Assembly: GCA_015057775.1 (NCBI GenBank)
Contig: SVDT01000006.1
Location: 1 to 47,482 of the forward strand
Source: Paenibacillaceae bacterium
GTDB taxonomy: Bacteria > Bacillota > Clostridia > Lachnospirales > Lachnospiraceae
DNA: 47,482 nucleotides
Direction: 5' to 3'
The position numbers were made by a program, and so were the translations under genes. Within the stretch, counting starts at the first letter, position 1, and each line of letters starts with the position of its first letter. Shown here piece by piece: positions 22,687-30,248 of the stretch. The notes under the pieces were generated by a model, which was not told the DNA's origin, ran no database searches, and saw only the letters and a program-made list of their open reading frames with translations.

Positions 22687-23535
22687 TTAATAAATAACAT
22701 GAAGCTTTTTATCGTACGCATTTCCCAAAAGGGTATCTACGTAAGCTGATGGGGTAAATCCAGACATTTTAACAAACTCCTTTATGAAGTGGGATTGATC
22801 ATAATATCCGGATACCAGTGCGGCATCTGCTCCATTTGCACAGTGAATGGTTTCTACCAGTCTGCTCACTGATTTCTGAAAGCGGATAAACCTGATCAGA
22901 TTTTTGGGATTCATGCCAAAATCTTCGTGGATTTTCTGATTTAAATATCGCTCCGAATAGCCTGTATAGCTGCTTAACTCCGAAAGTTTCAGACTTCCGT
23001 CTGACTTTAGTATCTGTTGGTGTATTACGTATTTCAGGCTGTTTTTATCTTCGGCATGATTAAAAAAATATTTCAGATAAAAATCAAGAAATACTTCTGT
23101 TTTTTCATGAAAGGATCCAGCCTCATACATACGCTCCAGCAGCCCTTCCCGTTCTCCTGAACTGGTCAGCATATCTTCCAGACTGATCTCATTATTCACC
23201 AGTTCATTAAGCTTCACGTTACCAGCAACCGGATTGACCCCCGGAAGAAAGCGGACCCCAAAATACTGGCAGTTCAATTCAGTTTTCGCCGTTCCTTTTT
23301 CTAACAGGGTGCCTGCTGCTTTGGCTTTCATTACTCCATCCTTTTCCCAGAACAGCATATCAATACAGGCATCCGGAATCACTCCCATATGGTCTGATTC
23401 GGCAGTAAACTGATAAAAATGAGAAAGATTATATTTCATAATACATTTTTTAGAATAGTTTGTGGTTGCCAGCACAAACTCAGGCTGTCGGGGACTCAGT
23501 GCCGGAACATTTTCTTTTCTCCATTCATTACTCAT
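22687..23535 (-). CDS. AraC-family transcriptional regulator
   Basis: 282 residues. The N-terminal region (about 30-125; VIPDACIDMLFWEKDG, AAGTLLEKG, YFGVRFLPG) matches the effector-domain type often placed before AraC helices. The C-terminal double helix-turn-helix (about 178-272) reads LKLSELSSYTGYSERYLNQKIHE and AALVSGYYDQSHFIKEF, with the conserved closing SGFTPSAY. It is transcribed away from the RidA-to-permease operon across a 292-base shared region, so it is the likely local activator of that operon. Inducer unknown, presumably the amino acid or amine the operon degrades. GGAG precedes the ATG. Confidence 0.9.
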   Translation of the reverse strand: MSNEWRKENVPALSPRQPEFVLATTNYSKKCIMKYNLSHFYQFTAESDHMGVIPDACIDMLFWEKDGVMKAKAAGTLLEKGTAKTELNCQYFGVRFLPGVNPVAGNVKLNELVNNEISLEDMLTSSGEREGLLERMYEAGSFHEKTEVFLDFYLKYFFNHAEDKNSLKYVIHQQILKSDGSLKLSELSSYTGYSERYLNQKIHEDFGMNPKNLIRFIRFQKSVSRLVETIHCANGADAALVSGYYDQSHFIKEFVKMSGFTPSAYVDTLLGNAYDKKLHVIY

Positions 23536-23754: not shown

Positions 23755-23774
23755 GAATGACAAAAAAGACAGCG

Positions 23775-23808
23775 AGGTCTTATGATTCCATATCATAAGG
23801 CTTTTTTT
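23775..23808 (+). terminator. Intrinsic terminator in the leader of the Rid operon
   Basis: CTTATGAT (23779-23786) and ATCATAAG (23792-23799) pair around TCCAT, extended by G-C and wobble pairs, then TTTTTTT (23802-23808). It sits just before the GGAGG of the first gene. An alternative stem AAGAC (23766-23770)/GTCTT (23777-23781) would use the same 5' arm, so an attenuator is possible. Confidence 0.7.
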
Positions 23809-23827: not shown

Positions 23828-24220
23828 GTGAAACGTATCAACTTTTCCTCCGGTGCTCCACTAGAAGAGCTGGTGGGATACTCAAGAATGGTAAAAGTCG
23901 GAGAACATATTTATATCGGGGGCACTACTGCCGTCCTGCCGGACGGAACAGTCCACGGTGATACAGCACTGGAACAGGCGGATTATATTTTCAGGAAGTT
24001 TATTAACTTGTTAAATGAGGCAGGAGCAAATGCCAGTGATGTTATAAAAATTAAGGCTTATGTAACAGATATGAGTTTTGCTAAGGAAGTGGGGGAAGCC
24101 TACTCCCCTTATTTTAAAGAAGTCCGTCCTTTGTTTACCATGGTCGAGACACCCAAACTTAACCGCCCGTCTCAAATGGTTGAGATTGAGCTGGAAGCGT
24201 TCATAACTGATGAAAATTAA
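23828..24220 (+). CDS. Rid-family (YjgF/YER057c/UK114) protein
   Basis: 130 residues, GTG start seven bases after GGAGG. The fold is clear: YSRMVKVGEHIYIGGTTAV, the helix QADYIFRKFINLLNEAGANASDVIKIKAYVTDM and the closing strand MVEIELEAF. RidA itself hydrolyses reactive enamines/imines from amino-acid oxidation and needs a conserved Arg (R105 in E. coli). Here the matching position appears to be F103 in RPLFTMVE, so this is a Rid subgroup without that residue and its reaction may differ. As first gene before an amine-oxidising flavoenzyme set, handling of an imine product is the natural inference. Confidence 0.92.
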   Translation: MKRINFSSGAPLEELVGYSRMVKVGEHIYIGGTTAVLPDGTVHGDTALEQADYIFRKFINLLNEAGANASDVIKIKAYVTDMSFAKEVGEAYSPYFKEVRPLFTMVETPKLNRPSQMVEIELEAFITDEN

Positions 24221-24239
24221 GAAAGAAGAGGTAAAACAT

Positions 24240-25376
24240 ATGGCTTATCCTGAGGTTGATTTTATTTATCTGAATGAAGAAGACATGGTAAAAGCAGGCG
24301 TTACGGATATGAAAGGCTGTGTAGAGGCCATGGAAGAAATGTTCCGGCTGTTAAAAGCAGGCGATTTCAGAATGGGCGGTTCCAATGCCAACTCACATGG
24401 TATTATGATGACATTTCCGGAGGCTTCTCCATTTCCAAATATGCCCACAGACGGACCCGACAGACGATTTATGGCAATGCCGGCCTACCTTGGCGGCAAA
24501 TTTGATATGGCTGGTATGAAATGGTACGGTTCTAACACAGAAAACCGAAAAAAGGGACTTCCAAGATCTATCCTTATGCTGACACTGAACGATAAGGACA
24601 CAGGCGCACCACTTGCCTATATGTCAGCAAATATTTTAAGTGCTTTCAGGACAGGAGCAGTGCCCGGGGTTGGAATCAAATATTTTTCAAAAGAAGATTC
24701 CAAAGTGGTAGGTATCATCGGACCAGGCGTTATGAGCAAAACTGCTTTTGATGCCGCAATGGCAGTCAGAGATCAGATTGAAACGGTAAAAATCAAGGGA
24801 AGAAGCCAGAAATCAGTGGACGGATTCATCCAGTATGTCAGGGAGAAATATCCCCAGATCAAAGAGCTGATTGTGGTAGATACGGATGAAGAAGCAGTCC
24901 GGGATGCGGATATAGTAAGTATTGCTACTTCAAGCCCAACCGGAGATCCTTCCCTGTATCCTTACATCAAAGAGGAATGGATCAAGCCAGGTGCCATCCT
25001 GTGCTGTCCGGCAGCTGCCAGATTTGACGATGACTTTATCTTAAACCGGGCAAGAAATGTGGCGGACAACATTCAGTTATACGAAGCCTGGGCAGAAGAA
25101 CTTCCCTATCCTTCCTACAACTCCGTTCCCATACCTGCAGTTCACTGCATGGATTTATTAAAAGACGGACTCATGAAAGCTGATCAGGTGGATGATCTGG
25201 GAGATGTACTTACCGGTAAGGTTCCTGTTCACAGAAAAGAAAATGAAATCGTGATTTATTCCGTGGGAGGAATGCCCATTGAGGATGTGGCGTGGGGGAC
25301 CATTGTTTACAGAAATGCTATGAAAAAAGGAATAGGAACGAAGCTGAACCTTTGGAAAGAACCTTACCTTGCTTAA
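24240..25376 (+). CDS. Ornithine cyclodeaminase/mu-crystallin family protein
   Basis: 378 residues from the ATG at 24240, chosen because AAGAGG lies eight bases before it; an upstream in-frame ATG lacks a site and overlaps the Rid gene. Motifs: AGMKWYGSN, SANILSAFRTGAVPGVG and the Rossmann loop VGIIGPGVMSKTA, later DADIVSIATSS. The family makes or reduces cyclic/linear imines with NAD(P): ornithine cyclodeaminase, alanine dehydrogenase, ketimine reductase. The tail (about 300-378) is longer than in classic members. From memory, some automated annotations name relatives in such operons tyramine oxidase subunit B; I cannot verify that. Acts on the imine or amino acid of this pathway by inference. 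Confidence 0.88.
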   Translation: MAYPEVDFIYLNEEDMVKAGVTDMKGCVEAMEEMFRLLKAGDFRMGGSNANSHGIMMTFPEASPFPNMPTDGPDRRFMAMPAYLGGKFDMAGMKWYGSNTENRKKGLPRSILMLTLNDKDTGAPLAYMSANILSAFRTGAVPGVGIKYFSKEDSKVVGIIGPGVMSKTAFDAAMAVRDQIETVKIKGRSQKSVDGFIQYVREKYPQIKELIVVDTDEEAVRDADIVSIATSSPTGDPSLYPYIKEEWIKPGAILCCPAAARFDDDFILNRARNVADNIQLYEAWAEELPYPSYNSVPIPAVHCMDLLKDGLMKADQVDDLGDVLTGKVPVHRKENEIVIYSVGGMPIEDVAWGTIVYRNAMKKGIGTKLNLWKEPYLA

Positions 25377-25403
25377 AAAAATTCAGGAACAGGAGCTGAC
25401 GAA

Positions 25404-25721
25404 ATGAGAATTGAAGAACACCCAATACTAGGAAAACCGGAAGAAAGAAAAGTCATTTCATTTATACACGACGGTACACCGCTTACTGGTTATGAAGGGG
25501 AACCAATTGCCATGGCTCTGGAAGCTGCAGGCATTATGATTCACCGATACACAAAAAAATACCATAAGCCAAGAGGGGTTTTCTGTGCAATCGGCCGCTG
25601 TACGGACTGCGTTATGGTTGTAGACGGCGTCCCCAATGTCAGAACCTGCATCACTCCCTTAAAAGAAGGTATGGTGATACAAACCCAGTACGGAGTATCG
25701 GCACAGGAGGAATCAACATGA
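25404..25721 (+). CDS. Small 2Fe-2S subunit of an HcnA/HypC-type dehydrogenase
   Basis: 105 residues. Plant-type ferredoxin-like fold with C61, C66, C69 and C82 (CAIGRCTDC and RTC), ligands for one 2Fe-2S cluster. The sequence FIHDGTPLTGYEGEPIAMALEAAGI is that of the N-terminal domain of sarcosine oxidase alpha and the gamma subunit of hydrogen cyanide synthase and D-hydroxyproline dehydrogenase. It would pass electrons from the flavoprotein subunits. The gene overlaps the next by four bases (ATGA), so the subunits are co-translated. Confidence 0.93.
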   Translation: MRIEEHPILGKPEERKVISFIHDGTPLTGYEGEPIAMALEAAGIMIHRYTKKYHKPRGVFCAIGRCTDCVMVVDGVPNVRTCITPLKEGMVIQTQYGVSAQEEST

Positions 25722-27304
25722 ATCGATTTGATTTGATTATTATAGGAGCCGGTCCTGCAGGTCTGTCAGCGGCAATCAGCGCGGCTAAAAACGGACTGTC
25801 TGTAATTGTGTTCGATGAAAATTCCAAACCTGGAGGACAGCTCTTTAAACAGATCCATAAATTCTTTGGTTCGAAAGAACATAAGGCAAAGATCCGGGGA
25901 TTTCGGATCGGAGAAGAATTATTAAAAGAAGCAGAAGATTTAAAGGTAACAGTCGTGTTAAATGCAATTGTTACGGGACTTTATCAGGATAAGGAAATAA
26001 CCGTAAAGATTGGCGAAGAAATCTGCCACTATAAGGGAGATGCCGTGATTGTTGCCACCGGAGCTACGGAAAATATGGTTCCTTTTGAAGGCTGGACACT
26101 TCCCGGTGTCATAGGAGCCGGAGCTTCCCAGACCATGATGAATTTACATCACATTAAACCCGGGAACAGGGTCTTGATGCTTGGAACGGGAAACGTGGGG
26201 TTGGTGGTCAGCTTCCAGCTGCTTCAGGCGGGTTGTCAGGTTGTAGCACTTGTGGATGCCGCTCCCAAAATAGGCGGGTACGGTGTGCATGCGGCCAAAG
26301 TCGCAAGATGCGGTGTTCCATTTTACCTCTCCCATACTATTATTAAAGCTGAAGGTGAGAATCGTGTCACAGGAGTCGTAATTGGAAAGGTGGATTCTTC
26401 CTTTCAATTAATTCCCGGCACCGAAAAGCATTTTGCTGTTGATACGATCTGTCTTGCAGTAGGCCTGTCTCCCATGTCACAGTTGCTTCATATGGCGGGC
26501 TGTAAGATGCGGGATACTCCCCTTGGATATGTTCCAGTGATTGATGAAAATGGCGAAACCAGCATACCCGGCATTTATGCAGCAGGAGATGTTTCCGGTA
26601 TCGAAGAGGCCAGCTCTGCCATGATAGAGGGGCGGATTGCAGGAACAAAAGCTGCGCAGTATCTGGGTTTCCTTTCAGAGGACAAGGCGGGAGAAACAAC
26701 CAAAGAATTAGAACTGGCAATAGACCGTTTAAGAAAAGGTATGTTTGCACCGGAAAACCGGGGAAAGAAAATCACTCTCACCGATGAGGGCATCCCTGTT
26801 TCAGAAAGCCTTTTAACCAATGGATATTTAGACGAGGCGGAATTAGACCGTTTTCCCGGAATTGCAAACGGAAAGGGAATCCACCCAGTTATGGAATGCA
26901 CCCAGAACATTCCATGTAACCCATGTCAGGATGCGTGCCCCAGAAAATGTATTAAAATCGGAGATACCATCACGTCACTTCCTGTCATTGATAAAGAAAA
27001 TATATGCAGCGGCTGTGGTATGTGCGTTGCTTCCTGTTCCGGCCAGGCAATCTTTCTTTTAAATCAGGATTATGAGCCAGGTTATGCTTCAGTTACTCTC
27101 CCCTATGAATTCCTTCCGCTACCGGTGAAAGGGGATACAGGATCCGCTCTTGATCGAAGCGGAAAAGAGGTATGCCAGGCGGAGATTATTGAGGTGAAAA
27201 CGCTGAAATCTTTCGATCATACCTCCTTACTCACCATGAAGGTACCACTTGATATGGCAATGAAAGCAAGGTTTTATAAAAGCAGGGGGTGCAGCCATGA
27301 ATAA
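25718..27304 (+). CDS. HcnB/OoxA-like FAD oxidoreductase fused to a two-cluster ferredoxin domain
   Basis: 528 residues. FAD loop IIGAGPAGLSAAISAA (about 7-22) and PGGQLFKQ, second Rossmann loop MLGTGNVGLVVS (about 154), and the closing FAD motif GIYAAGDVSG. Up to about residue 385 it matches the alpha subunit of HCN synthase, opine oxidase and D-hydroxyproline dehydrogenase. In those the C-terminal part carries a BFD-like cluster; here it is replaced by two cysteine groups, CNPCQDACPRKC with an earlier C394, and CSGCGMCVASC (from C430), consistent with two 4Fe-4S clusters. The BFD-like part is a separate gene directly downstream, overlapping by eight bases. Electron acceptor unknown; the ferredoxin module suggests a low-potential carrier. 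Confidence 0.93.
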   Translation: MNRFDLIIIGAGPAGLSAAISAAKNGLSVIVFDENSKPGGQLFKQIHKFFGSKEHKAKIRGFRIGEELLKEAEDLKVTVVLNAIVTGLYQDKEITVKIGEEICHYKGDAVIVATGATENMVPFEGWTLPGVIGAGASQTMMNLHHIKPGNRVLMLGTGNVGLVVSFQLLQAGCQVVALVDAAPKIGGYGVHAAKVARCGVPFYLSHTIIKAEGENRVTGVVIGKVDSSFQLIPGTEKHFAVDTICLAVGLSPMSQLLHMAGCKMRDTPLGYVPVIDENGETSIPGIYAAGDVSGIEEASSAMIEGRIAGTKAAQYLGFLSEDKAGETTKELELAIDRLRKGMFAPENRGKKITLTDEGIPVSESLLTNGYLDEAELDRFPGIANGKGIHPVMECTQNIPCNPCQDACPRKCIKIGDTITSLPVIDKENICSGCGMCVASCSGQAIFLLNQDYEPGYASVTLPYEFLPLPVKGDTGSALDRSGKEVCQAEIIEVKTLKSFDHTSLLTMKVPLDMAMKARFYKSRGCSHE

Positions 27305-27623
27305 ACGTAACGACCGCTTTACAGACATCGGACCACTGATCCCCCAGCCAGATGATGATATGATTATCTGCCGCTGTGAAGAAATCACAAAAGGCGAAAT
27401 CAGAAAGGCTGTTCATGATGGCATGTTTACTTTAACCGAGATTCGAAGGTATTTAAGAACAGGCATGGGGCTTTGCCAGGGGCAGACCTGCTCAAAATTG
27501 GTAAAGTCCATTATAGCAAAGGAACTGGGGCTTACACCGGGTGATATAGAACCGGCAGTATCCCGTGCGCCTATGAGGCCAGTAGAAATGAAAATTTTAG
27601 GCAATGACAGGAAGGAGGTCTGA
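27297..27623 (+). CDS. BFD-like 2Fe-2S protein
   Basis: 108 residues. The bacterioferritin-associated-ferredoxin-like fold has ligands C25 and C27 in ICRCEEITKGE and C60 and C65 in GLCQGQTC. In related multi-subunit amine dehydrogenases this domain is the tail of the large flavoprotein subunit; here it is freestanding and overlaps that gene by eight bases, so it is almost certainly a subunit of the same complex. The tail PAVSRAPMRPVEMKIL also resembles the extreme C-terminus of the fused versions. Confidence 0.92.
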   Translation: MNKRNDRFTDIGPLIPQPDDDMIICRCEEITKGEIRKAVHDGMFTLTEIRRYLRTGMGLCQGQTCSKLVKSIIAKELGLTPGDIEPAVSRAPMRPVEMKILGNDRKEV

Positions 27624-27627
27624 TGGA

Positions 27628-28755
27628 ATGGAAAACTGCGCAGATGTAATTATCATAGGCAGCGGAATCATTGGAAATGCAACCGCTTATTATCTGGCAA
27701 AGAAGGGCTGTTCTGTCATAGTCCTGGAAAAAAGCGACCATATCGGAGGCGGTGGTTCTTCCAGAAATGGAGGCGGTGTCCGCCAGTCTGGGAGAGACAG
27801 GCGGGAGCTTCCTCTGGCAATGTACGGAGCTTCCAACCTTTGGCCCACCCTTTCTGAAGAGCTTGGAATGGATGTGGAATATTATCAGAAGGGTAACCTG
27901 CGCCTTGGAAAAACAGAAGATCATCTAAAAATATTAAACAGTCTTACTGATCGGGCAAGCGCACAGGGGCTTGGCGTTACCATGATTGATGGGAAAGAAG
28001 CGAAGGAGATCTGTCCTTACCTCTCCGATGAGGTAATTGGAGCAAGCTGGTGTCCCACCGATGGTCATGCCAACCCTATGCTGGCAACGCTTGCTTATTA
28101 CAGAAAGGCGAGACAGTCGGGTGTGCGTTTCATCACTGGAGAGACAGTAATTGAGATAAAAAAATACAAAGGAAAAGCAAGGCAGGTTATTACTGACAAT
28201 GACGTGTATGAAGGAGAAACAATCATACTGGCAGCCGGATATGAAAGCCGTAAGATTGCAGCTTCCGTAGGAGTGGATATCCCCATGACTCAGGCACTTT
28301 TGGAGGTTTTAGTCACAGAGGCCCAGCCCCCAATGTTCTACCAGATGCTGGGCACTGCAATGGCTGATTTCTACGGACACCAAAGCACTCACGGATCTTT
28401 TGTCTTTGGAGGTTCCTCCGGGTTTGAAGACTTTAACAAAAGTAATGGAACCCCTGTAACCAATAGCCAGACTGCCTCCTGCATCTGCCGTGGTATTATG
28501 AAATATTTCCCCTGCCTCTCAAGTGCAAAAATTGTAAGAACGTGGGCAGGATTCATTGATGTCTGCGCCGATCATGTCCCTGTAATCAGCCATGTTGAGG
28601 AAGTACCGGGACTGATTCTTGCCTGTGGGTTTACCGGTCATGGCTTCGGTATTTCTCCTACGGTAGGGACAATTCTATCCCAGATGGCCACTGGAGAGGA
28701 GCCTGTTTTAAGCATAAAAGATTTCCGGTACGACCGGTTTCATACTAAGATTTGA
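27628..28755 (+). CDS. DAO-family FAD-dependent amino acid/amine dehydrogenase (HcnC/HypB-like)
   Basis: 375 residues from the ATG at 27628, preferred because GGAGG lies about nine bases before it and the previous stop is at 27621-27623. FAD loop VIIIGSGIIGNATAYYLAKKG with VLEKS, then GGGGSSRNGGGVRQSGRDRRE, and a C-terminal FAD closure VPGLILACGFTGHGFGISPTVG. This is the glycine/sarcosine/D-amino-acid oxidase fold and the catalytic beta subunit of HCN synthase-type complexes; it would oxidise a C-N bond of an amino acid or amine to an imine. Substrate cannot be read from sequence. Confidence 0.92.
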   Translation: MENCADVIIIGSGIIGNATAYYLAKKGCSVIVLEKSDHIGGGGSSRNGGGVRQSGRDRRELPLAMYGASNLWPTLSEELGMDVEYYQKGNLRLGKTEDHLKILNSLTDRASAQGLGVTMIDGKEAKEICPYLSDEVIGASWCPTDGHANPMLATLAYYRKARQSGVRFITGETVIEIKKYKGKARQVITDNDVYEGETIILAAGYESRKIAASVGVDIPMTQALLEVLVTEAQPPMFYQMLGTAMADFYGHQSTHGSFVFGGSSGFEDFNKSNGTPVTNSQTASCICRGIMKYFPCLSSAKIVRTWAGFIDVCADHVPVISHVEEVPGLILACGFTGHGFGISPTVGTILSQMATGEEPVLSIKDFRYDRFHTKI

Positions 28756-28763
28756 CCCAATGG

Positions 28764-28799
28764 CAAAGACGTCTTATTTTAAGATGTCTTTGTTTTTTT
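28764..28799 (+). terminator. Terminator between the oxidoreductase genes and the permease
   Basis: CAAAGAC-G-TCTTA pairs with TAAGA-T-GTCTTTG (one G-T pair), followed by seven T. Only 30 bases separate it from the permease ATG, so the permease depends on read-through or on a promoter inside or before the hairpin. Confidence 0.88.
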
Positions 28800-28829
28800 A
28801 CTTCACTGACCACATAAAGGAGGAGCTAT

Positions 28830-30248
28830 ATGAACAATAAAAAAATGGGACTTGGAAGCGCAGTTTCTGTATGTGTTGGATTAATCGTGGCAACCAGCTG
28901 TCTGTTATCACTGGGACTTGGTACCGGACTTGCCGGAAAGGGTTTTATTATTGCAATGTTTGTTGTTGTAATCTTAAATATTCTTCTTGCACTTTCTTTT
29001 CGTGAACTTCACAATTTAATGCCGGAGGCTGAAGGCGGACTGGGGCAGTATACGCTGGCGGGACTGGGACCTGTTCCATCCATTGTTTCCAATCTTTCCG
29101 CCTATGTTATTACCAATATGCTGGCTGGTTCCGTAGAACTTGCCATGTGCGGACTGGTCATTCAGGAAACCTTTCTAAAAGGAGTTCCTGTACTGGTAAT
29201 TAGTCTGTCCCTTCTTGCTTTTTTAACCATTGTCAATTATCTGGGAGTTGATATCTTTGCTAAAATACAAAATTTAACTGTTATAGCACTCATCGGTTCC
29301 CTTATACTTCTGGGAGTCATCAGTGCATTTAAATTAGGAGTGGGTACTCCCCTTGCTCCCAGCGCACAGACTCCTCCTGTTGTAACAGGATTTTCAGGAA
29401 TCCTGTCTCTCACTGCATTGGCATTTTGGATGTTTATCGGAATTGAATTTGTCATTCCGGTATCAAAGGATTTAAAAAATCCAAAACGGGATGTTCCACT
29501 TGCCATGATCCTTGGCGTATGTCTTCTTTTTATTGTTCAGAGTTTATTAAGCACCGGTATGAGAAACTACGTTTCACTGGAAGAACTGCGTTCCAGCAGC
29601 ATGCCTCATATTATCTTCGCAGAACGGGTTATGGGAAAAGCCGGCAGCTACTGGATGGGGCTTATCACCATACTTGCCGGGGTCAGTACCATCAATACTG
29701 TACTGGGTAGTGTTACCAGAATCTTAAGCGGCATGGCTGATGCCGGTTTAATGCCATCTTATTTTAGCAAAAAAAATAAAAGCGGAACTCCCACACCAGG
29801 ACTTTTCCTTATGACAGGAGTCATCTCTTTTATATTGGTGAGCGGTATTGCAAACTATTCCGGTTTAACCAATTTCCTGCTTGCTGCTTCCTGTTTCTGG
29901 CTCACCTCCTATATCCTGGTCAATCTTACCGTCCTGGTGCTGCGCAGGCGTTATCCCAATGCACCTGGAAGAGATAAACGGTTTACATTATGGGGAATAC
30001 CTCAGATTATCTGTATCATCGGAGACGTTTATATGATCTGGCATATTGCAGAAGGAGATGCCCGGATATTTATCTATAAAATATATTTTGTACTGCTTAT
30101 TATTACCTTACTTTTCGCTTTCTTCTGGGTAAAAATTGTAAAAAAGGCTGATGCATTCCGTCCCGTTTCTCTGGATGATATCAATGATGTGAAACTGGAA
30201 AACCAGGTTGAGGAAGGTCAGACCTCCCCCTCCCTGATCGTAAACTAA
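28830..30248 (+). CDS. APC-superfamily amino acid permease
   Basis: 472 residues with about twelve hydrophobic segments. Start region MGLGSAVSVCVGLIVATSCLLSLGLGTG has the Gly-rich first helix of APC transporters, and GFSGILSLTALAFWMFIGIEFVIPVSKDLKNPKRDVPLAM is the conserved helix 6 to loop region (F-x-G-x-E, then P-x-R-x-x-P). It ends in an acidic cytoplasmic tail. GGAGGAG precedes the ATG. As last gene of the Rid operon it probably imports the amino acid or amine degraded by the flavoenzyme complex. Confidence 0.92.
   Translation: MNNKKMGLGSAVSVCVGLIVATSCLLSLGLGTGLAGKGFIIAMFVVVILNILLALSFRELHNLMPEAEGGLGQYTLAGLGPVPSIVSNLSAYVITNMLAGSVELAMCGLVIQETFLKGVPVLVISLSLLAFLTIVNYLGVDIFAKIQNLTVIALIGSLILLGVISAFKLGVGTPLAPSAQTPPVVTGFSGILSLTALAFWMFIGIEFVIPVSKDLKNPKRDVPLAMILGVCLLFIVQSLLSTGMRNYVSLEELRSSSMPHIIFAERVMGKAGSYWMGLITILAGVSTINTVLGSVTRILSGMADAGLMPSYFSKKNKSGTPTPGLFLMTGVISFILVSGIANYSGLTNFLLAASCFWLTSYILVNLTVLVLRRRYPNAPGRDKRFTLWGIPQIICIIGDVYMIWHIAEGDARIFIYKIYFVLLIITLLFAFFWVKIVKKADAFRPVSLDDINDVKLENQVEEGQTSPSLIVN

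Follow-up and report, generated by a model that had tools for sequence, protein, structure and literature searches.

Seven genes at positions 23828-30248 of a 47,482-nucleotide stretch of bacterial DNA (contig SVDT01000006.1 of assembly GCA_015057775.1, deposited as a Paenibacillaceae bacterium and termed here the window) probably form a catabolic system for amines or N-substituted amino acids that is built around a five-part iron-sulfur (Fe-S) flavodehydrogenase. The clearest result of this analysis is that an ornithine cyclodeaminase (OCD)-like gene, a Rid-family gene and a flavoenzyme gene, often together with an APC permease and an AraC-type regulator, constitute a kit that, judged by sequence comparison, is shared across phyla. 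Within this kit the flavoenzyme appears to be the most variable part, with one chain in Proteobacteria and five parts in anaerobes, and the seven-gene set looks like an amine-type cassette in a form suited to a fermenter, in which the lone flavoenzyme has been replaced by the five-part Fe-S complex. How polyamines and other biogenic amines are degraded anaerobically in the gut is, to our knowledge, little understood. A literature search (titles and abstract starts, among the matches listed) found no paper describing the operon; a description in print is possible, subscription papers being outside the search.

An earlier note on the window had described seven genes running in a single direction; open reading frames confirm their direction and ends, and a Pfam model matches the family named for each:

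23828-24220, + strand: Rid-family gene (GTG start; Pfam Ribonuc_L-PSP)
24210-25376, + strand: OCD/mu-crystallin-family gene, termed here OCD-like (Pfam OCD_Mu_crystall; NCBIfam NF004848)
25404-25721, + strand: [2Fe-2S] subunit Fer2 (Pfam Fer2_4; HcnA-like, gamma-subunit-like)
25718-27304, + strand: HcnB-like FAD/NAD(P) flavoprotein with two [4Fe-4S] motifs (Pfam Pyr_redox_2; Fer4_7 tail sub-threshold)
27297-27623, + strand: BFD-type [2Fe-2S] subunit (Pfam Fer2_BFD)
27604-28755, + strand: DAO-type catalytic subunit, probable true start 27628 (Pfam DAO)
28830-30248, + strand: APC-family permease (Pfam AA_permease_2)

Recurrence in anaerobes and in Proteobacteria

At least 576 HcnB-like relatives occur in genome contigs, the best 80 of which were taken as loci, so that this sample is biased toward near kin (their titles name many gut or rumen isolates or bins and several Acetobacterium). 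With further genomes added, 126 core-HcnB loci were collected, which fell to 115 after removal of near-identical HcnB proteins and to 78 when more than 6.5 kb was required on both flanks; the window is included. Gene labels are best BLAST matches that pass set identity limits; unless stated otherwise, they cover genes that lie on the strand of the core and no more than 7.5 kb away. Within Clostridia and a few other anaerobes Fer2, the HcnB-like protein, BFD and DAO form a steady block: of the 115 loci, 114 have a labelled BFD, 112 a Fer2 and 109 a DAO. An OCD-like gene accompanies this block in 69 of the 78 flanked loci, and in 71 after hand checks of L099 (where two OCD genes lie slightly beyond the limit) and L027 (where OCD is split over two frames). 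The former count, a test set beforehand, upholds the view that the genes belong to one system, and the arrangement, which the earlier note had proposed to seek in other genomes, recurs in many genera and so is not due to chance. Rid had been taken as a constant part of the operon, which it is not: it occurs in 20 of the 78 loci and an APC permease of the window's type in 16, so that the notion of a constant seven-gene operon is rejected. A P-II protein is found in 32 of the 78 loci, all 32 of which have a second APC type; it adjoins the permease (e.g., in L065, L081 and L089), suggesting possible nitrogen control of amine uptake, and in several Pot-type loci it also precedes PotA.

An even sample of 291 Clostridia genomes was searched for OCD at E 1e-30 and for HcnB at E 1e-100, with matches in 12 and 16 genomes, respectively. 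The close copies, seven of HcnB (at least 66% identity) and seven of OCD (at least 48%), all fall within the same five genomes. OCD lies within 5 kb of six of these seven HcnB copies; the seventh (G090:C1:825390) is locus L174, which has the alternative front end described below, in a genome (G090) that holds both kinds of locus. At E 1e-180 the core was found in 32 of 299 Lachnospiraceae genera sampled, or about one in ten. The genome to which the window belongs (4.56 Mb in 428 contigs, the window being on contig C417) is Lacrimispora-like, and its nearest named relative is Lacrimispora xylanisolvens (locus L023), the HcnB-like protein of which is 96% identical over its full length.

A tblastn search of plasmids with the OCD-like protein yielded 34 records, of which 25 were listed; 13 loci, mostly annotated ones, were chosen from those listed and opened (from Shinella, Falsirhodobacter, Martelella, Gemmobacter, Aminobacter, Pantoea, Sphingobium, Thioclava (two), Rahnella, Acinetobacter, Chimaeribacter and Sagittula). 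OCD, Rid and a FAD-binding oxidoreductase are consecutive in all 13; an APC permease is present in nine of the opened stretches and a gene named AraC family in ten. These cassettes thus resemble the window in having a close OCD homologue (56-60% identical in the eight loci compared), a Rid protein and a flavoenzyme of the DAO superfamily, often with APC and AraC, but differ in that a single flavoenzyme of about 430 residues stands in place of Fer2-HcnB-BFD-DAO and in that Rid is distant (25-29% identical in six of the eight, with no match at E 1e-4 in the other two). The flavoenzyme is 25-28% identical to the window's DAO in four of the eight, aligned over about 400 residues, and aligns in pieces in the other four. 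The earlier note had named a close homologous operon with a known substrate as something that would refute its reading, which proves half true: these homologous cassettes bear the name 'tyramine oxidase subunit B', which is an annotation name and occurs in no paper among those searched.

Some neighbours of both kinds of locus are related to amines or aldehydes. On the plasmids, an aldehyde dehydrogenase directly follows the flavoenzyme in two of the 13 (L198 and L203) and lies a few genes off in L194 and L196; L193 has a succinate-semialdehyde dehydrogenase and an iron-containing alcohol dehydrogenase; and the two Thioclava loci (L199 and L204), which share the same neighbourhood and are hardly independent, have agmatinase, urea carboxylase and allophanate hydrolase alongside. 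The remaining opened loci have no telling neighbours. Among the 115 anaerobe loci, three or more of PotA-D lie by the core in nine, agmatine deiminase (on either strand) in three, with N-carbamoylputrescine amidase (in L090 both score above curated cut-offs), and an iron-type alcohol dehydrogenase in 19. On plasmid pSH1 of Sphingobium xenophagum, an N-methylglutamate-type cluster (L177) occurs together with an OCD-Rid-flavoenzyme cassette (L198) beside genes named for nicotine breakdown.

The iron-sulfur flavoenzyme and its relatives

Fer2 matches Fer2_4 with 102.7 bits and has the cysteine pattern Cys-X4-Cys-X2-Cys-X12-Cys. The HcnB-like protein contains two [4Fe-4S]-type patterns (C394/C400/C403/C407 and C430/C433/C436/C440), both invariant in 23 rows, which make ferredoxin a possible electron acceptor, and keeps a second GxGxxG motif (G156, G158 and G161 are invariant), which makes NAD(P)+ another; the window's own genome encodes an RnfC homologue. 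Beyond the [4Fe-4S] motifs lies a conserved stretch of about 75 residues (approximately 450-528; window 27065-27304), predicted to form beta strands, for which no Pfam family scored above its cut-off. The nearest plasmid match to this protein (Parabacteroides) sits among unrelated genes. Across 21 rows of DAO, Arg312 and Trp314 are invariant, the Arg-X-Trp that the accessible text of PMC4575208 gives as the putative FMN motif of the heteromeric DAO-type dehydrogenase family. In the same rows Met9 is nearly invariant, so that DAO probably starts there, at 27628; because of this, and because residues 1-8 of the OCD-like model have a predicted local distance difference test score (pLDDT) below 50, two of the operon's gene overlaps may be start-site artefacts.

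By its Arg-X-Trp motif and its gamma-type Fer2, though not by a three-subunit layout, the window enzyme fits the family of heteromeric flavin dehydrogenases. The best Protein Data Bank (PDB) match to DAO is the beta subunit of an archaeal dye-linked L-proline dehydrogenase (1y56; 201 bits by profile), 1y56_A is the second match to the HcnB-like protein by fold, and DAO and the HcnB-like protein also match sarcosine oxidase beta and alpha, respectively (the HcnB-like chain having 528 residues against about 965 for the latter). A heterotetrameric form of the L-proline dehydrogenase exists, and its family has the Arg-X-Trp motif (PMC4575208, accessible text), but in the Pyrococcus horikoshii enzyme the Fer2-like part is the alpha N-terminus, whereas the window has a separate Fer2 gene, and that text mentions neither an OCD nor a [4Fe-4S] tail on alpha, both of which the window has. 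HCN synthase, D-hydroxyproline dehydrogenase and opine dehydrogenase (OdhABC) likewise combine DAO, HcnB-like and Fer2-type subunits; according to the same portion of PMC4575208, such alpha-beta-gamma enzymes carry their second [2Fe-2S] motif inside alpha, whereas the window has a BFD gene of its own, and relative to them the [4Fe-4S] tail and the C-terminal stretch are extra. Cyanide production was rejected as a function: the likeness to hcn is at the family level only, and the OCD, permease and P-II context does not fit it.

The earlier note's statement that known relatives have three or fewer subunits does not hold, given the heterotetrameric L-proline dehydrogenase (so termed, for Thermococcus, in the title of a reference in PMC4575208), sarcosine oxidase (heterotetrameric by its PDB names) and Fer2-HcnB-BFD-DAO sets in 11 further genomes of the 291-genome sample. 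These 11 genomes contain 12 distant HcnB copies, 11 of which were opened: Fer2 is present in ten, HcnB in two open frames in all 11, BFD in eight and DAO, 26-34% identical to the window's, in ten. Because of this low DAO identity and because OCD is absent among the genes shown, these sets were rejected as instances of the same system. Their neighbours, as named from the sequences, are sodium symporters, aldehyde ferredoxin oxidoreductase-like and DapA-like proteins; in L181, L183, L184 and L191, distant Fer2-HcnB-DAO sets lie beside aldehyde ferredoxin oxidoreductase-like genes, some with sodium symporters. Fer2-HcnB-BFD-DAO sets are thus a format used more widely in Clostridia, in which the DAO subunit can be exchanged, in keeping with the 'subunit exchange' that the available part of PMC4575208 describes for opine dehydrogenases. 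Locus L173 (G360:C24, 4525-12598) has two tandem core sets, whose DAO subunits share 37% and 27% identity with that of the window; an iron-type alcohol dehydrogenase gene comes next. In the window's own genome, L115 (G000:C184, 9178-11899) consists of a DAO-family gene (22%), an HcnB-like gene (31%) and a small gene, a trio that is perhaps, at a guess, an anaerobic glycerol-3-phosphate dehydrogenase.

The OCD-like protein, Rid and a second front end

The OCD-like protein scores 605.4 bits over residues 15-387 against NF004848, 'tyramine oxidase subunit B' (cut-off 362), 176 against the SbnB model and 151 against the alanine dehydrogenase model of NCBIfam. Among solved structures, a profile of 22 rows scores highest against SbnB (203 bits; next 143), which is also the nearest relative by fold (23-24% identity in the fold alignment), and which PDB titles describe in complex with N-(1-amino-1-carboxyl-2-ethyl)-glutamic acid (4m54) and with alpha-ketoglutarate (4mpd). 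Ornithine cyclodeaminase (1u7h) scores 60 bits with the same profile and aligns poorly in the region of its catalytic Asp; as SbnB is far nearer, ornithine cyclodeamination was set aside as improbable. In 106 rows, each covering more than 85% of the query, R86, K104, R119 and R147 are kept throughout and R85 in 104; all five are kept in each of eight proteobacterial rows. This Arg/Lys set is shared with SbnB: R119 corresponds to Arg there, but to Thr, Ser or Gly in alanine dehydrogenases, pyrroline-carboxylate reductase and 7rbp. The two proteins differ in role, SbnB being biosynthetic, and in the cofactor loop, where SbnB, like alanine dehydrogenase and pyrroline-carboxylate reductase, has Asp, whereas the OCD-like protein has Gly-Arg or Gly-Ser (Gly197 in 106/106; Arg198 in 74/80; Ser198 in 26/26 of a second OCD type). 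Gly-Arg/Ser rather than Asp at this position would point to NADP(H), and hence to reduction.

The Rid position that aligns with the arginine of RidA, which is presumably the catalytic one, is occupied by Lys in the window and by Ala, Met, Gly, Glu and others in its relatives. In the accessible text of PMC4433059, RidA-type imine hydrolase activity requires that arginine; by this criterion the window's Rid should not be a classical imine hydrolase, and imine hydrolysis by Rid was not taken as given.

Seven of the 78 loci lack OCD after the hand checks, and four of these (L076, L161, L174 and L176; termed here Mgs-type loci) carry instead APC, glutamine synthetase (GS)-like, amidotransferase, GXGXG and FMN glutamate-synthase-like genes, followed by the same core and Rid; not one of the 115 loci has both OCD and such a set. 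The layout resembles that of the N-methylglutamate pathway (GmaS, MgsABC, MgdABCD), for which the available parts of PMC6237917 and PMC3160333 describe GMA synthetase and N-methylglutamate synthase, likened to GS and glutamate synthase (GOGAT), together with a sarcosine-oxidase-like N-methylglutamate dehydrogenase. Counterparts of the FMN protein, at 47% identity, lie in Sphingobium and Rhizobium plasmid clusters (two loci opened of 360 records), which also hold glnT, glutamine amidotransferase, glxC/GXGXG and sarcosine oxidase subunits--that is, the N-methylglutamate layout; in the Lachnospiraceae sampled, apart from G343, no match to the FMN protein exceeds 43% identity. The window differs in having OCD in place of GmaS-MgsABC and an HcnB-like chain without the rest of sarcosine oxidase alpha: GmaS and MgsABC are absent from its operon, and no MgsB-like protein was found in its own genome at E 1e-60. 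The sharing of one core by the two front ends suggests that this core acts on an N-alkylglutamate, and the absence of OCD just where the MgsABC-type set is present suggests that OCD makes the same intermediate in a single step.

Trees were based on 109 DAO rows and on 48 rows chosen from 108 for DAO and HcnB together. In the latter tree the Mgs-type loci need two changes and three of the four form one clade; a single origin is not rejected by the approximately unbiased (AU) test (p 0.244), and two independent origins are therefore not claimed.

A candidate route and its rivals

From the genes, their orders, similarities and conservation and the residues kept in them, all of which are observed directly, a substrate, a reaction direction, an intermediate and an electron acceptor may be inferred. 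The APC permease would import a primary amine, with putrescine or agmatine suggested by the neighbours in some relatives. The OCD-like enzyme, which resembles SbnB, would condense this amine with a 2-oxo acid, 2-oxoglutarate being the likeliest, and reduce the resulting imine by NAD(P)H to an N-alkyl amino acid, namely an N-alkylglutamate. The five-part complex--DAO (FAD/FMN), BFD and Fer2 ([2Fe-2S]), and the HcnB-like protein (FAD/NAD(P), two [4Fe-4S])--would then oxidise the alkyl side of the C-N bond, after which hydrolysis would yield an aldehyde and glutamate. Electrons would leave the DAO flavin through the Fe-S centres, reach the HcnB flavin and finally reduce NAD(P)+ or ferredoxin, rather than quinone or O2. 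Rid would be a helper, in a role possibly other than classical RidA chemistry. The net reaction would be amine + 2-oxoglutarate to aldehyde + glutamate, nearly redox-neutral and without pyridoxal phosphate (PLP). Taken whole, this sequence of import, N-alkylation and oxidation stands at slightly less than even chances; an N-alkylglutamate intermediate, proposed in part because OCD is nearest to SbnB, which binds an N-substituted glutamate, is by itself somewhat less likely than not. It is possible, though doubtful, that anaerobes here perform PLP-free transamination of amines with two interchangeable front ends and a modular complex, possibly with electron confurcation of ferredoxin and NAD(P)+; the accompanying idea that the SbnB-like enzyme plays the part of glutamate dehydrogenase, and the GmaS-MgsABC-like set that of GS/GOGAT, is equally speculative. 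As to the imine chemistry of the earlier note, C-N bond oxidation and an NAD(P)-type, imine-reducing OCD family are retained, but ring closure by OCD finds no support.

Several observations weigh against this route. Three of the 78 loci (L068, L092 and L168) have neither OCD nor the GmaS-MgsABC-like set; most anaerobe loci lack a polyamine gene, and the window operon has no polyamine or aldehyde gene. SbnB works in the oxidative direction. An Arg three residues past the RidA position is kept in 29 of 29 Rid rows, which leaves room for imine hydrolysis by Rid. In the plasmid locus L199, the flavoenzyme has L-amino acid deaminases as its closest relatives (5hxw, 250 bits; 1y56_B, 131), which fits a plain amino acid as well. 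The swap of front ends represents one or two events, with only four loci behind it. Moreover, the GS/GOGAT-like set could merely assimilate released ammonium, an alternative that arises because the GS-like protein falls under every matched curated cut-off (type III glutamate-ammonia ligase, 326 against 469.6; gamma-glutamylputrescine synthetase, 303 against 650).

The rival readings reassign the same parts. The complex might oxidise a free amine directly to its imine, with OCD as an accessory reductase or a structural subunit. This reading is prompted by the name 'tyramine oxidase subunit B', with its score above the cut-off, and by the amine- or aldehyde-related neighbours of the cassettes; tyramine (tyn) genes have reportedly been found in Pseudomonas putida U. 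This is unlikely, however, given the invariant, carboxylate-type residues of OCD, the Mgs-type loci without OCD, which it leaves unexplained, and the pairing of close OCD homologues with flavoenzymes as distant as 25-28% (in four of eight), which would be odd for a structural subunit. Inversion of D- to L-amino acids, for which Pseudomonas DauA/DauB is the model, would have the DAO complex oxidise a D-amino acid, OCD reduce the imino acid to the L-form and Rid deal with leaked imine. It would account for the company of a DAO family, an OCD family, Rid and an amino-acid permease, and for the conserved Arg/Lys residues, which suit an alpha-carboxylate; the L199 flavoenzyme is consistent with it, and according to the title of PMC5619798 Rid proteins can speed DauA. 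Inversion is nonetheless quite unlikely, as agmatine, polyamine and aldehyde genes lie by some relatives, the exchange of OCD for GS/glutamate-synthase-like genes would be hard to explain, OCD is nearest to SbnB rather than to alanine dehydrogenase or OCD proper, and Rid has no Arg at the RidA position.

An opine or other N-substituted amino acid might also be imported as such and split by the complex, leaving OCD to handle the freed amino acid. The heteromeric DAO family includes opine dehydrogenases, octopine operons carry ocd, and one opine dehydrogenase type is close to the archaeal L-proline dehydrogenase (all from the accessible text of PMC4575208), the beta subunit of which is nearest to the window's DAO. 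Against this, some loci have polyamine transport or agmatine genes nearby, which, like the GS-like front end, suggests that the pathway begins with a free amine, and OCD is nearer SbnB than ornithine cyclodeaminase (203 against 60 bits), so that this reading is distinctly improbable.

Beyond the core, the following features flank or interrupt the operon:

22687-23535, - strand: AraC-type regulator, divergent from the operon (HTH_18; DUF6597 slightly under cut-off)
23774-23804, + strand: leader hairpin (13 pairs) and T-run, overlapping a possible 13-codon leader ORF (23757-23798)
28762-28794, + strand: terminator-like hairpin (15 pairs) and T-run in the DAO-APC gap (z -7.15 against shuffles)

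The divergent AraC-type gene bears out the regulator that had been supposed beside the operon (it is 85-98% identical in six Lacrimispora-like loci: L023, L024, L025, L027, L028 and L029), and the variant as a whole fits a fermenter. The APC permease shares 57% identity with its counterpart in the Mgs-type locus L174; its best NCBIfam model, a basic amino acid/polyamine antiporter, gives 113.6 bits, far under the cut-off of 409. The hairpin between DAO and APC is kept, by eye, in 8/8 aligned rows (the window and seven Lacrimispora-like loci); because it is strong and conserved, APC may share the operon's transcript only in part, or be expressed at a lower level. The hairpin before Rid (z -2.8 in the window) is kept, likewise by eye, in 6/6 aligned Lacrimispora-like rows, and the leader ORF is out of frame in one of the six (L027); a transcription attenuator is a weak possibility. 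A terminator and promoter scan gave 15 terminator-like sites in the region, with 6.7 expected, and listed no clear promoter ahead of the leader hairpin; an Rfam scan of the window gave no match.

What is new here looks like a well-conserved amine-type cassette with a flavoenzyme rebuilt for anaerobes; the chemistry proposed for it is bold. If that chemistry is true, the route would have a name, its N-alkylglutamate intermediate could be sought by mass spectrometry, the presence of the OCD-like gene in 'tyramine oxidase' cassettes would have a reason, and the need of aerobic amine cassettes for OCD-like and Rid genes would be accounted for.

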